Under the pieces are notes generated by a model. It was not told the origin of the DNA and ran no database searches. It saw nothing but the letters and a program-made list of their open reading frames with translations. Shown here in pieces: positions 5,034 through 51,186 of a DNA stretch of 57,672 nt. The first letter of the stretch is position 1, and each line of letters starts with the position of its first letter. Origin of the DNA: Candidatus Peregrinibacteria bacterium (GTDB taxonomy: Bacteria > Patescibacteriota > Gracilibacteria > Peribacterales > Peribacteraceae); assembly GCA_018648865.1 (NCBI GenBank), contig JABGQH010000008.1:1-57672 (forward strand), in the 5' to 3' direction. A program made the translations under genes and the position numbers.

Positions 5034-6103
5034 TGTGCTATTCTGTTTTTATGCTAATCCCACTTTATCCTCAACTCTCATTCTTATCTCTTTTAGGTTA
5101 TGCCTTTTTCGCGTTTGTATTTGGCGTGAGCATGACTCCTTGGTTTTTAAGATTCTTAAAGAAGAATCGTTTAGGCAAACAACTCAGAGTAGAAACAGTT
5201 GATGGTAGAGAGGCAACAATTTTTAGGAAATATCATAAGGACAAATTTGGAACACCAACAATGGGCGGTCTTTTAATTTGGGGATCAATCTTATTTACTA
5301 TTGTTTTATCTAGAGTTCTTTCATACGCTGGAGTTGTAGATTTCTCACTTCTGCAAAGAAGGGAGGTTTATTTGCCACTATTTACGTTAGTTTCATTGGG
5401 ATTACTGGGGCTAGTGGATGATTATTTTAATATTATGGGAATGGGTAAAAAGAAAGGTTTGGATGTACTTCCAAAAATAACAACTTTACTAGTAATTAGT
5501 TTAATTGGAGCATATTGGTTTTATGTGAAACTTGGATACGATCAAATCCATGTTCCATTCTGGGGCGATATAGAACTTGGAATTTGGTACATCCCAACCT
5601 TCATGTTCATATTAGTAGGTACAGCTAATGCGGTAAATGTTACAGATGGCCTAGATGGTTTAGCTGGGGGGTTATTGGTATTAGCTTTCGGTTCTTTTTC
5701 GTTACTCGCATATTATAATGGAATGTATGTTCTTGCTGGATTTTGTGTTGTAACAGTTGGTGCCATTGCAGCATTTTTGTGGAACAATGTCCCGCCTGCT
5801 TTGTTTTTTATGGGTGATACAGGTTCCTTGGCTCTTGGGGGTACACTTGGTGTAATTGCATTAATGACAGATACGATATTGGTGCTGCCATTTATTGGGT
5901 TTGTATTTATGATCGAAATGCTTTCTGTAATAATTCAGTTAACAAGCAAAAAACTTCGTGGTGGTAAAAAGGTATTTAAAGCAGCTCCAATCCATCATCA
6001 TTTTGAAGCACTTGATTGGGGGGAAAGCAAAGTTACCATGAGGCTTTGGATTACAGGATCATTCTTTGCATTCATTGGTGTATTGATTGGTTTATTTGGC
6101 TAG
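5033..6103 (+). CDS. mraY: Phospho-N-acetylmuramoyl-pentapeptide-transferase MraY
   Basis: Integral membrane enzyme that transfers phospho-MurNAc-pentapeptide from UDP to undecaprenyl phosphate, making lipid I for peptidoglycan. The 356-residue protein has about ten membrane segments, the DDY motif (LGLVDDYFNIMG), the catalytic NVTDGLDGLAGG and FMGDTGSLALGG loops, and the diagnostic histidine cluster APIHHHFE. The start ATG overlaps the dnaB stop (TAATG); a second in-frame ATG at 5051 would trim six residues. Coupling to dnaB rather than to a mur/fts cluster is unusual but typical of shuffled small genomes. Confidence 0.96.
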   Translation: MCYSVFMLIPLYPQLSFLSLLGYAFFAFVFGVSMTPWFLRFLKKNRLGKQLRVETVDGREATIFRKYHKDKFGTPTMGGLLIWGSILFTIVLSRVLSYAGVVDFSLLQRREVYLPLFTLVSLGLLGLVDDYFNIMGMGKKKGLDVLPKITTLLVISLIGAYWFYVKLGYDQIHVPFWGDIELGIWYIPTFMFILVGTANAVNVTDGLDGLAGGLLVLAFGSFSLLAYYNGMYVLAGFCVVTVGAIAAFLWNNVPPALFFMGDTGSLALGGTLGVIALMTDTILVLPFIGFVFMIEMLSVIIQLTSKKLRGGKKVFKAAPIHHHFEALDWGESKVTMRLWITGSFFAFIGVLIGLFG

Positions 6104-17825: not shown

Positions 17826-17912
17826 AGGGCGGCTAGCTCCCACCTACGTTCCGCTTCCACCTTCGCCCTTCGGGTCTTCGGTGGATAAGACGCGGAATCT
17901 TCGGTCGGCAGG
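17826..17912 (+). repeat. Truncated tRNA-Val 5' copy fused to a GC-rich repeat (copy 1)
   Basis: AGGGCGGCTAGCTC at 17826-17839 repeats exactly the base before tRNA-Val plus its first 13 bases (17955-17968). It is followed by a GC-rich element that begins CCACCTACG (17840-17848) and ends CTTCGGTCGGCAGG (17899-17912). Inside are nested inverted repeats TTCCGC/GCGGAA and CCACC/GGTGG. The flank before each copy is also similar (TTGAT..., then TCGC before AGGGCGGC). Confidence 0.75.
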
Positions 17913-17955
17913 AAGCAGCAGCACTTGATCCTTTAATAACCCGTATCGCATTTTA

Positions 17956-18033
17956 GGGCGGCTAGCTCAGTTGGTTTAGAGCGTCCGGTTTACACCCGGA
18001 AGGTCATAGGTTCGATTCCTATGCCGCCCACCA
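17956..18033 (+). tRNA. tRNA-Val (anticodon TAC)
   Basis: Full cloverleaf of 78 bases. The acceptor stem GGGCGGC/GCCGCCC is perfect; the anticodon stem TCCGG/CCGGA encloses the loop TTTACAC, and the T arm is ATAGG-TTCGATT-CCTAT. The CCA end is encoded. The CCA tail is also the start of a palindrome (ACCAT...ATGGT), and a truncated copy of its 5' end lies 129 bases upstream. Confidence 0.95.
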
Positions 18034-18065
18034 TTCGACTCGGCACTTTGTGCCTCGCTCATGGT
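18030..18065. repeat. ACCAT...ATGGT palindrome at the tRNA-Val 3' end
   Basis: The element starts in the tRNA CCA tail: ACCATTCGACTCG, a GGCAC-TTT-GTGCC hairpin, then TCGCTCATGGT. The same frame with a different central hairpin follows tRNA-Ile at 23207-23247. No T-run follows directly, but seven T residues occur about 20 bases later. Confidence 0.65.
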
Positions 18066-18098
18066 TAACCATTTCGACTCTATTTTTTTGCTCATTTA

Positions 18099-23184: not shown

Positions 23185-23206
23185 ATATAGTTTTTGTTAA
23201 TGGCTT

Positions 23207-23247
23207 ACTATGAGCGAGTACCGCACTTGCGGTACGAGTCGAATGGT
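23207..23247. repeat. ACCAT-type palindrome at the tRNA-Ile 3' end
   Basis: Read on the minus strand it begins in the tRNA CCA tail: ACCATTCGACTC, a GTACCGC-AAGT-GCGGTAC hairpin, then TCGCTCATAGT. The outer parts match the element after tRNA-Val while the inner hairpin differs. It may also act as the tRNA's terminator; TTAACAAAAAC follows on the minus strand. Confidence 0.65.
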
Positions 23248-23320
23248 GGGCCACCTGAGATTTGAACTCAGGACCGCCAGTTTATAAGTCTGGTGCTCTG
23301 ACCAACTGAGCTAGTGGCCC
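23244..23320 (-). tRNA. tRNA-Ile (anticodon TAT)
   Basis: Cloverleaf of 77 bases with acceptor GGGCCAC/GTGGCCC, D stem AGCTC/GAGC, T arm CTGAG-TTCAAAT-CTCAG and an encoded CCA. The anticodon loop CTTATAA gives TAT (UAU), which reads AUA as isoleucine without lysidine modification. The base next to the loop in the anticodon stem is an A-A mismatch. Most bacteria use a CAU tRNA modified by TilS instead. Confidence 0.85.
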
Positions 23321-35469: not shown

Positions 35470-35521
35470 ACCATCTCGGAGTAGTTCCGTTATTGCGGAA
35501 CGTAAACGGATGGTGGCCCAG
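35470..35521 (-). repeat. Duplicated tRNA-Phe 3' end with hairpin (copy 2)
   Basis: Positions 35501-35521 repeat exactly 35589-35609, that is the last bases of tRNA-Phe, its CCA and the first bases beyond. The copy runs into its own hairpin, ACCATC/GATGGT (35470-35475 with 35509-35514) around an inner GTTCCG/CGGAAC stem, followed by a T-run on the minus strand. It looks like a second terminator with an attached tRNA end. Confidence 0.7.
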
Positions 35522-35561
35522 TCCGGCTTCACTGCGTTTCGCCGTGACTAAGGACAATATT

Positions 35562-35602
35562 AAAAAACCATCACGGTGTAGCCGAAGGCGTAAACGGATG
35601 GT
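35562..35602 (-). terminator. Terminator-like palindrome of tRNA-Phe
   Basis: On the minus strand ACCATC (starting in the tRNA CCA) pairs with GATGGT around a GCC-TTC-GGC inner hairpin, then six T residues follow. Confidence 0.65.
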
Positions 35603-37026: not shown

Positions 37027-37099
37027 GTCGGTGTAGCTCAGATGGTAGAGCGCTTTCCCAGTAGGAGAGAGGTCGTTGGTTCAATCCCAGCCATCGACA
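37027..37099 (+). tRNA. tRNA-like gene, anticodon position AGT, C33, no CCA
   Basis: Full cloverleaf: acceptor GTCGGTG/CATCGAC, D arm with GG, T arm GTTGG-TTCAATC-CCAGC, discriminator A, no encoded CCA. The anticodon stem CTTTC/GAGAG holds the loop CCAGTAG. The body resembles bacterial tRNA-Thr, and AGT would be Thr, but base 33 is C where almost all tRNAs have U. The charge identity is therefore uncertain. Confidence 0.65.
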
Positions 37100-37123
37100 C
37101 TCAGGTTCACTTGAACTTGATTA

Positions 37124-45381: not shown

Positions 45382-45431
45382 CTATTAATTATATTTCATG
45401 TTTTTGACTATAAATAACTTCGTTATAAATA

Positions 45432-45551
45432 TATGTACTTTCTATTAGTATTGATCTAAAGTTTTGTAGTAGTCGGGGCGTAGCTTCCACCTACGTCAGC
45501 CTTTGCCTTTTTGTGTAACTGTAGACAGGTCGGCTGACTACGGTCGACAGG
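45432..45551 (+). repeat. Truncated tRNA-Pro upstream copy fused to a GC-rich repeat (copy 2)
   Basis: TCGGGGCGTAGCT at 45473-45485 repeats the first 12 bases of tRNA-Pro plus one upstream base (45616-45628). The upstream flank is duplicated too: TATGTACTTTCT at 45432 and again at 45576, the same distance within one base. The truncated copy continues as the GC-rich element CCACCTACG (45487-45495) ... CTACGGTCGACAGG (45538-45551), with an inner perfect inverted repeat GTCAGCC/GGCTGAC. Confidence 0.75.
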
Positions 45552-45616
45552 CAGTTTCCAACTTCGCTATTAAAATATGTACTTTCTGTTTAGTTTCTTC
45601 TAATATTTTCCTATAT

Positions 45617-45693
45617 CGGGGCGTAGCTCAGTTGGCTAGAGTGCGTGCTTTGGGAGCATGAGGTCGCTGGTTCGAGTCCAGTCGCCCCGACCA
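45617..45693 (+). tRNA. tRNA-Pro (anticodon TGG)
   Basis: Cloverleaf of 77 bases. Acceptor CGGGGCG/CGCCCCG with the C1-G72 pair typical of tRNA-Pro, anticodon loop TTTGGGA, T arm GCTGG-TTCGAGT-CCAGT (with one G-T pair), CCA encoded. A truncated copy of its 5' end and flank lies 143 bases upstream. Confidence 0.95.
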
Positions 45694-50989: not shown

Positions 50990-51066
50990 CATCGCCCCGG
51001 TAGCTCCAACCTTCGCCCGTCTTCATCCCGCAGTTGCGGGATTCCGCCGTGGCTTCGGTCGGCAGG
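50990..51066 (+). repeat. Truncated tRNA-Arg 5' copy fused to a GC-rich repeat (copy 3)
   Basis: CATCGCCCCGGTAGCTC at 50990-51006 repeats the last four upstream bases and first 13 bases of tRNA-Arg (51106-51122). It continues as the GC-rich element CCAACCTTCG (51006-51015) ... CTTCGGTCGGCAGG (51053-51066), with a perfect inner hairpin ATCCCGCA-GT-TGCGGGAT. A TATAAT lies about 27 bases before the truncated copy. Confidence 0.75.
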
Positions 51067-51109: not shown

Positions 51110-51186
51110 GCCCCGGTAGCTCAGCTGGATAGAGCGACGGCCTTCTAAGCCGTAGGTCACAGGTTCGAACCCTGTCCGGGGTACCA
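51110..51186 (+). tRNA. tRNA-Arg (anticodon TCT)
   Basis: Cloverleaf of 77 bases. Acceptor GCCCCGG/CCGGGGT (a terminal G-T pair), anticodon stem ACGGC/GCCGT with loop CTTCTAA, T arm ACAGG-TTCGAAC-CCTGT, CCA encoded. A truncated copy of the 5' end lies 116 bases upstream. Confidence 0.95.

Follow-up and report, generated by a model that had tools for sequence, protein, structure and literature searches.

Partial copies of tRNA genes interrupted by REP-like hairpins next to intact tRNA genes in a Candidatus Peregrinibacteria genome

The stretch of DNA analyzed here, hereafter called the window (57,672 nucleotides), constitutes a single contig in a 23-contig assembly of a 1.13 Mb genome. It carries an intact tRNA-Pro gene preceded by a second copy of its own leader and of its first 12 nucleotides, the latter being referred to below as the decoy. 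The features of this locus are as follows:

45416..45473 (+), leader copy 1, located 5′ of the decoy (50 aligned nucleotides at 45416-45465, plus 8 nucleotides)
45474..45485 (+), tRNA-Pro decoy, with the same letters as the intact gene over nucleotides 1-12 (CGGGGCGTAGCT)
45486..45551 (+), REP-like hairpin TCCACCTACG-stem-CTACGGTCGACAGG, located between decoy nucleotides 12 and 13
45486-45501/45532-45547, inverted arms of this hairpin, the consensus of which also occurs in the decoys of other tRNAs and in dispersed copies
45552..45556 (+), what is left of the decoy's D-loop (CAGTT), agreeing with its own tRNA from nucleotide 13
45560..45616 (+), leader copy 2, immediately 5′ of the intact tRNA-Pro
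45617..45693 (+), intact tRNA-Pro, anticodon TGG (ARAGORN; Rfam RF00005, 63.8 bits)

The repeats TATGTACTTTCT (45432 and 45576) and TCGGGGCGTAGCT (45473 and 45616) each occur only twice in the whole window, and their spacing of 143-144 bp matches the positions and the offsets of 144 and 143 bases given in the preliminary description. The two leaders (45416-45465 and 45560-45609) can be aligned without gaps at 76% identity, with an alignment score of 58 versus a median of 16 for the leaders of different tRNAs, and none of the cross-pairs scores as high. This identity, together with that of nucleotides 1-12, bears out the proposal that the leader and the tRNA 5′ end were doubled as one unit. The GC-rich element which had been noticed in the upstream copy is the hairpin at 45486-45551: base 13 of the decoy already belongs to its stem, and GTCAGCC (45495) pairs with GGCTGAC (45532) to form the inner stem. 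Since the copy resumes after the hairpin with its own D-loop start, CAGTT, the hairpin interrupts the copy internally and does not terminate it.

The preliminary description had mentioned the same decoy at other tRNAs, and the architecture was found to be far more general than this. When a 5′ decoy was defined as a tRNA's own first 13 nucleotides, with at least 12/13 matching, at a distance of no more than 300 nucleotides from the tRNA, the own 5′ end was present upstream of 16 of the 42 tRNAs in the genome and downstream of none; conversely, the own 3′ end (the last 16 nucleotides) was present downstream of five of the 42 and upstream of none. No middle segments and no reverse-complement ends of these 42 tRNAs occur as decoys in the same genome, and the swapped-tRNA control gave 11/1718. 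This orientation (5′ ends upstream, 3′ ends downstream) is that expected if each surviving rearrangement must retain one intact tRNA. In the partially sampled relatives, few exceptions to this rule were observed, and decoys accompany 8/34 tRNAs in G123, 4/10 in G273, 3/20 in G001, 2/15 in G014, and 1/31 in G005. Searching the genome contigs for a coding relative via the ORF neighboring the locus yielded none. Further examples in the window are as follows:

17827..17838 (+), tRNA-Val(TAC) decoy, nucleotides 1-12, followed by nested hairpins up to about 17912 and by the intact tRNA at 17956-18033
50994..51005 (+), tRNA-Arg(TCT) decoy, nucleotides 1-12, followed by a hairpin at 51006-51066 and by the intact tRNA at 51110-51186
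35511..35526 (-), mirror-image 3′ decoy of tRNA-Phe, consisting of a copy of the 3′ end and CCA with a hairpin before it, 72 nucleotides past the gene (13/16 nucleotides identical)

The usual pattern of organization is GCT, then the hairpin YCCRCCTTCG-stem-CTWCGGYGGRCARG, then CAGTTGG, the hairpin being located between nucleotides 12 and 13 in most tRNAs. The sequence after the hairpin often continues with the D-loop of the own tRNA, a rule seen at many loci, and the piece retained in the 5′ decoys nearly always extends from nucleotide 1 to nucleotides 20-30. The 3′ decoys mirror the 5′ ones and consist of a hairpin, the T-arm 3′ strand, the acceptor 3′ strand, CCA, and the trailer. Nested hairpins occur in the decoys of Val, Lys-CTT, Gly, and Met, and tandem multi-unit repeats at loci L092, L136, L214, L229, L242, L270, and L279. 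The Ser and Leu decoys carry different hairpins, located at the 5′ and 3′ borders of the D-loop, respectively, and a single element therefore does not explain all the cases. The duplication, the hairpin, its insertion point, the orientation rule, and their recurrence can all be read directly in the letters of these loci.

An assembly artefact seems most improbable. Such an artefact is suggested at Lys(TTT), where a perfect 55-nucleotide repeat is found, and near Arg(TCG), where there is a comparable one; both adjoin N-gaps and have the appearance of k-mer artefacts, but the same architecture recurs in dozens of independent assemblies, and at tRNA-Pro the leaders differ at about a quarter of the positions (24%) in a vicinity free from N-gaps, which makes a scaffolding or k-mer artefact unlikely there. 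The perfect repeat at Lys(TTT) was rejected as a fresh insertion because it adjoins an N-gap and resembles a k = 55 artefact. The perfect repeats of about 55 nucleotides located beside N-gaps at G000:C20:71809-72040 (L098) and on the 3′ side of Arg(TCG) (L024) are probably k-mer assembly artefacts, and the length of the Lys(TTT) array is uncertain.

The GTDB species genomes were then scanned with a pattern consisting of TAGCT, the hairpin ends, and CAG, without the acceptor strand. The scan gave 86 matches in the 80 loci fetched, of which 79/86 were followed, on their own strand and at a distance of at most 400 nucleotides, by a tRNA. Since the pattern includes D-arm sequence, this near-exclusive return of decoys is partly built in, and the independent part of the result is the match in the acceptor strand: nucleotides 1-12 are identical in 54 of the 80 decoy-tRNA pairs and differ at one position in 11 more, and the acceptor 7-mer is the same as that of the own tRNA in 54/80 pairs versus 11/6212 cross-pairs. 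Among the record titles, Peribacteria and Peregrinibacteria are the most frequent, and Parcubacteria, Magasanik-, Uhr-, Falkow-, Kerfeld-, Buchanan-, Doudna-, and Dojkabacteria also occur, along with single bins labelled Verrucomicrobia, Bacteroidetes, Kiritimatiellales, and Ignavibacteria, labels which may be wrong. With a related pattern, 11 of 288 genomes of the class matched, 10 of them in the family to which the window belongs, and the reversed-pattern control gave 0. In the open-licence literature, which is weak evidence in this respect, no published account of the architecture was found under tRNA-linked repeats in Patescibacteria, tRNA pseudogenes, or palindromic elements. A Peribacteria genome paper reports 46 tRNA genes, and its passages on tRNAs and repeats do not mention this architecture (PMC4736985). 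Partial tRNA duplications combined with inserted REP-like hairpins are general in candidate phyla and, as it appears, so far undescribed.

At locus L228, near position 5831, a decoy with a doubled leader of 60 nucleotides is followed by a 5′ half resembling tRNA-Thr(GGT), which diverges just past the anticodon loop and at which neither ARAGORN nor Rfam calls a tRNA; this gene perhaps contains an intron or is broken.

To account for these data, we regard it as probable, if only modestly so, that a hairpin entered the D-arm of a tRNA copy produced by tandem duplication and was tolerated because the intact copy follows further downstream. The REP-like hairpin, short and dispersed, would insert at Y^CA sites, for which the D-arm of most tRNA genes (GCT^CAG) would provide a target. 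In the sole copy of an essential tRNA, the hairpin would be lethal; the events that survive would be those in which the leader and the first 20-30 nucleotides of the tRNA are tandemly duplicated, the interrupted 5′ fragment keeping the original promoter and the intact tRNA being placed downstream. Transcription would begin just before the decoy and read through it, and RNase P would free the intact tRNA. The mirror-image cases, with the hairpin at the T-loop and the 3′ fragment downstream, may have arisen by the same route. We infer the order of events, the read-through transcription, and the cleavage from the arrangement of the parts, and the mechanism of origin as a whole is moderately supported. 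In these reduced genomes, the tRNA genes are not only short but also essential and as a rule present once, so that a repeated D-arm insertion that survived via partial duplication would be an unexpected trace of hairpin mobility, and one that can still be read. This trace supplies Y^CA as the target site, leader divergence as a measure of age, and a testable correlation with transposases.

The hairpin was also found away from tRNAs in several relatives, and the strict copies number 1 to 35 per genome, the reversed-pattern control giving 0. The non-tRNA hairpins L305 and L319 are located at similar Y^CA targets. Only 3/27 non-tRNA hairpins have duplicated flanks (z>4), versus 54/82 near tRNAs, and flank duplication was therefore rejected as a general product of hairpin insertion, since it is missing away from tRNAs. 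Copies L305, L312, and L319 sit within short repeats such as CATAACTCATAAC or AAGCTCAAAGCTC. In a comparison between seven genomes, those carrying Y1_Tnp (PF01797) genes (G123, G273, and G258) harbor 17, 35, and 29 hairpins, respectively, whereas those without Y1_Tnp (G000, G005, G150, and G187) harbor 12, 3, 3, and 5. The encoded proteins read as REP-associated-type transposases, and a RAYT-type transposase may thus have mobilized the hairpin. Among the findings that speak against the insertion account, besides the different hairpins of the Ser and Leu decoys, no Y1_Tnp gene is present in the genome of the window itself (G000), and a hairpin lies near only one of the six Y1_Tnp loci, at a distance of about 310 bp, and none adjoins the other five.

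The element resembles the REP/REPIN sequences associated with RAYT (Y1_Tnp) in that it is a short, imperfect, dispersed palindrome and in that the copy-rich genomes carry Y1_Tnp. It differs from them in that the transposase is usually not adjacent and is missing from the window's genome, and in that the hairpins cluster in the doubled 5′ ends of tRNAs, a context for which no description was found in the open-licence literature. The GTAG ahead of the hairpin in the decoys is tRNA sequence (GTAGCT), and the tetranucleotide tag GTAG/CGTC is missing at the palindrome foot in the non-tRNA copies L305, L312, and L319. The element is dispersed as REPs are, but its copy number is below the more than 100 copies per genome usual for REPs (PMC2817692). 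Because it fits a REP/RAYT-like type but fails the tag test, it is called here REP-like, and not REP. The nesting, the GC-rich hairpins, and the insertion within genes are shared with other elements, namely Rickettsia palindromic elements and the hairpin elements of organelles (double-hairpin elements, sponge RHE, and the GC clusters of yeast mitochondrial DNA). The difference is that the hairpins studied here accompany a target tRNA that has been partially duplicated in tandem, and that they occur in candidate-phylum bacteria. Group I introns in tRNAs provide no parallel, since no intron model matches in the window and the intact tRNA lies downstream.

It is unlikely that the decoys are ordinary partial tandem tRNA duplications undergoing passive decay, in which hairpins were later acquired by chance. 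The tandem arrays with near-identical units (Asn of G273 at L136, L242, L279, and L270) are consistent with this process, as is L205, where an apparently full-length copy of tRNA-Thr, bearing a hairpin at each of the D-loop and T-loop positions, precedes the intact tRNA-Thr(CGT) gene. However, the type-a hairpins share a single junction (nucleotides 12/13), the 5′ decoys nearly always retain the same piece, and no hairpin-free decoy was found among the unbiased decoys read by eye. This last absence also counts against the insertion account favored above, as independent duplication predicts that some should exist. The L205 copy, which is in keeping with that account as well, may represent a stage between complete and partial duplication. 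It is very unlikely that the decoys are relics left by an integrase which inserts site-specifically into tRNA genes and is borne by a phage or an integrative element: elements of this kind also target a tRNA gene, restore it intact on one side, and leave a fragment, but the inserts here measure tens to a couple of hundred nucleotides and contain no genes, it is mostly the 5′ end with its leader that is doubled, each tRNA matches its own copy, and tandem arrays occur. The distance between decoy and tRNA (roughly 50-390 nucleotides) leaves no room for an integrase gene or cargo between the duplicated ends.

Under the insertion into a duplicated copy favored above, the decoy should occupy the original start of the tRNA. 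The combined -35/-10 score peaks 5-20 nucleotides upstream of the decoy, with the same spacing as for undecoyed tRNAs and above the shuffled sequences, and at some loci (L218 and L211) the decoy-tRNA spacers are too short for a promoter; judging from this motif score and these short spacers, the decoy does occupy that start and is probably transcribed within the pre-tRNA leader. Many candidate-phylum tRNAs may therefore be transcribed with a long structured leader in which their own 5′ strand is present a second time; this has a bearing on RNase P processing and annotation. The RNase P RNA (RF00010) is present in all six genomes tested, and the loss of RNase P was thus rejected as the cause of these odd leaders. 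A boxA-like motif (TGTTCTTT, GATCCTT, TGCTCCTT) was observed about 20-25 nucleotides before the tRNA in the window (17930-17955) and at L204 and L266; TGTTCTTT occurs in 13/80 spacers versus 1/34 controls, yet also in 17/80 decoy leaders.

It is also possible, though this is a tentative view, that the decoy and hairpin form a functional part of the pre-tRNA leader regulating tRNA yield, the tRNA part being kept identical by selection. The decoy 5′ strand might rival the real 5′ strand in pairing with the 3′ acceptor strand; alternatively, antitermination or processing might be steered by the hairpin and the leader following it. The decoy comes first in the predicted transcript, which is consistent with this idea, as is the predicted pairing with the 3′ acceptor strand (0.73 for the decoy versus 0.12 for the real strand). 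The predicted pairing of the decoys was just as strong when the spacers were shuffled (0.78), so that this preference is due to the energy model and the hairpin and not to any tuning; it was not used as evidence of function, and an RNA switch inferred from folding was rejected on these grounds. The excess stability of the decoy RNA is modest (mean z -1.39 versus -0.30 in controls), and anti-D-arm complementarity in the spacer was rejected (6.53 versus 6.48 in shuffles). The likeness to T-box and similar leader RNAs lies in the upstream structured RNA and in any regulation being in cis, the difference being that the target here is a tRNA gene; in the Rfam search of the window for T-boxes or other catalogued leader RNAs, only tRNAs reach the gathering score.

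The pattern of conservation bears on the same alternative. Among the decoys located by their hairpin and not by a tRNA match, identity to the own tRNA is 12-13/13 in 19/23, and over positions -1 to -12 of the leader it drops to 0.2-0.65, i.e., nucleotides 1-12 are retained and the leaders are near background within a few bases 5′ of nucleotide 1. The leaders are clearly homologous at 9/33 and 16/75 loci in two sets, with 100% identity at some loci (e.g., L235 and L242); at most loci they are no longer alike while nucleotides 1-12 still are, a pattern not predicted by neutral decay and one that also counts against the insertion account. The 15 loci with a clearly doubled leader show one decoy mismatch versus 9.2 expected from the leader divergence, a test which is biased by the match threshold used for finding the decoys. 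The Lys(TTT) decoy is common to G000, G001, and G273, with an altered inner stem and altered leaders. On the other hand, acceptor mismatches show no pair-preserving bias (6/25 preserve pairing, with 25 mismatches in 679 positions), and orthologous tRNAs carry decoys patchily: the tRNA-Pro decoy is absent in the relatives G001 and G014 and is therefore lineage-specific, and that of G022 has a different type of hairpin. Taken with the sharing at Lys(TTT), this means that some decoys are old and many are lineage-specific.

The divergence of the tRNA-Pro leaders by about 24% agrees with the earlier statement that the event is not recent. That the structure has been kept, as was also stated, does not follow from divergence by itself, which gives an age; this part of the claim is only suggestive, the scarcity of decoy mismatches being in its favor, while the unchanged fold with shuffled spacers, the mismatches that do not favor pairing, and the absence of the decoy in G001 and G014 are against it. 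Selective constraint on the decoys is suggested but not proven, and it is doubtful that the decoy-hairpin unit is a selected leader element across many candidate phyla, controlling tRNA maturation in that two 5′ strands of the same sequence compete to pair with a single 3′ acceptor strand. If selection does keep the decoys, they would constitute a new mode of tRNA regulation.

Two further observations were made in the window. A predicted tRNA-Thr with the anticodon AGT (37027-37100), which has the lowest score in the genome and no encoded CCA, adjoins tRNA-Tyr, and this pair is possibly foreign or decayed. Lastly, hairpins starting within CCA (CCA...TGG) are located directly 3′ of many tRNAs (35540-35600, 23200-23250, and 18034-18075), and some of them end in a T-run, as if a terminator had CCA as one of its arms.
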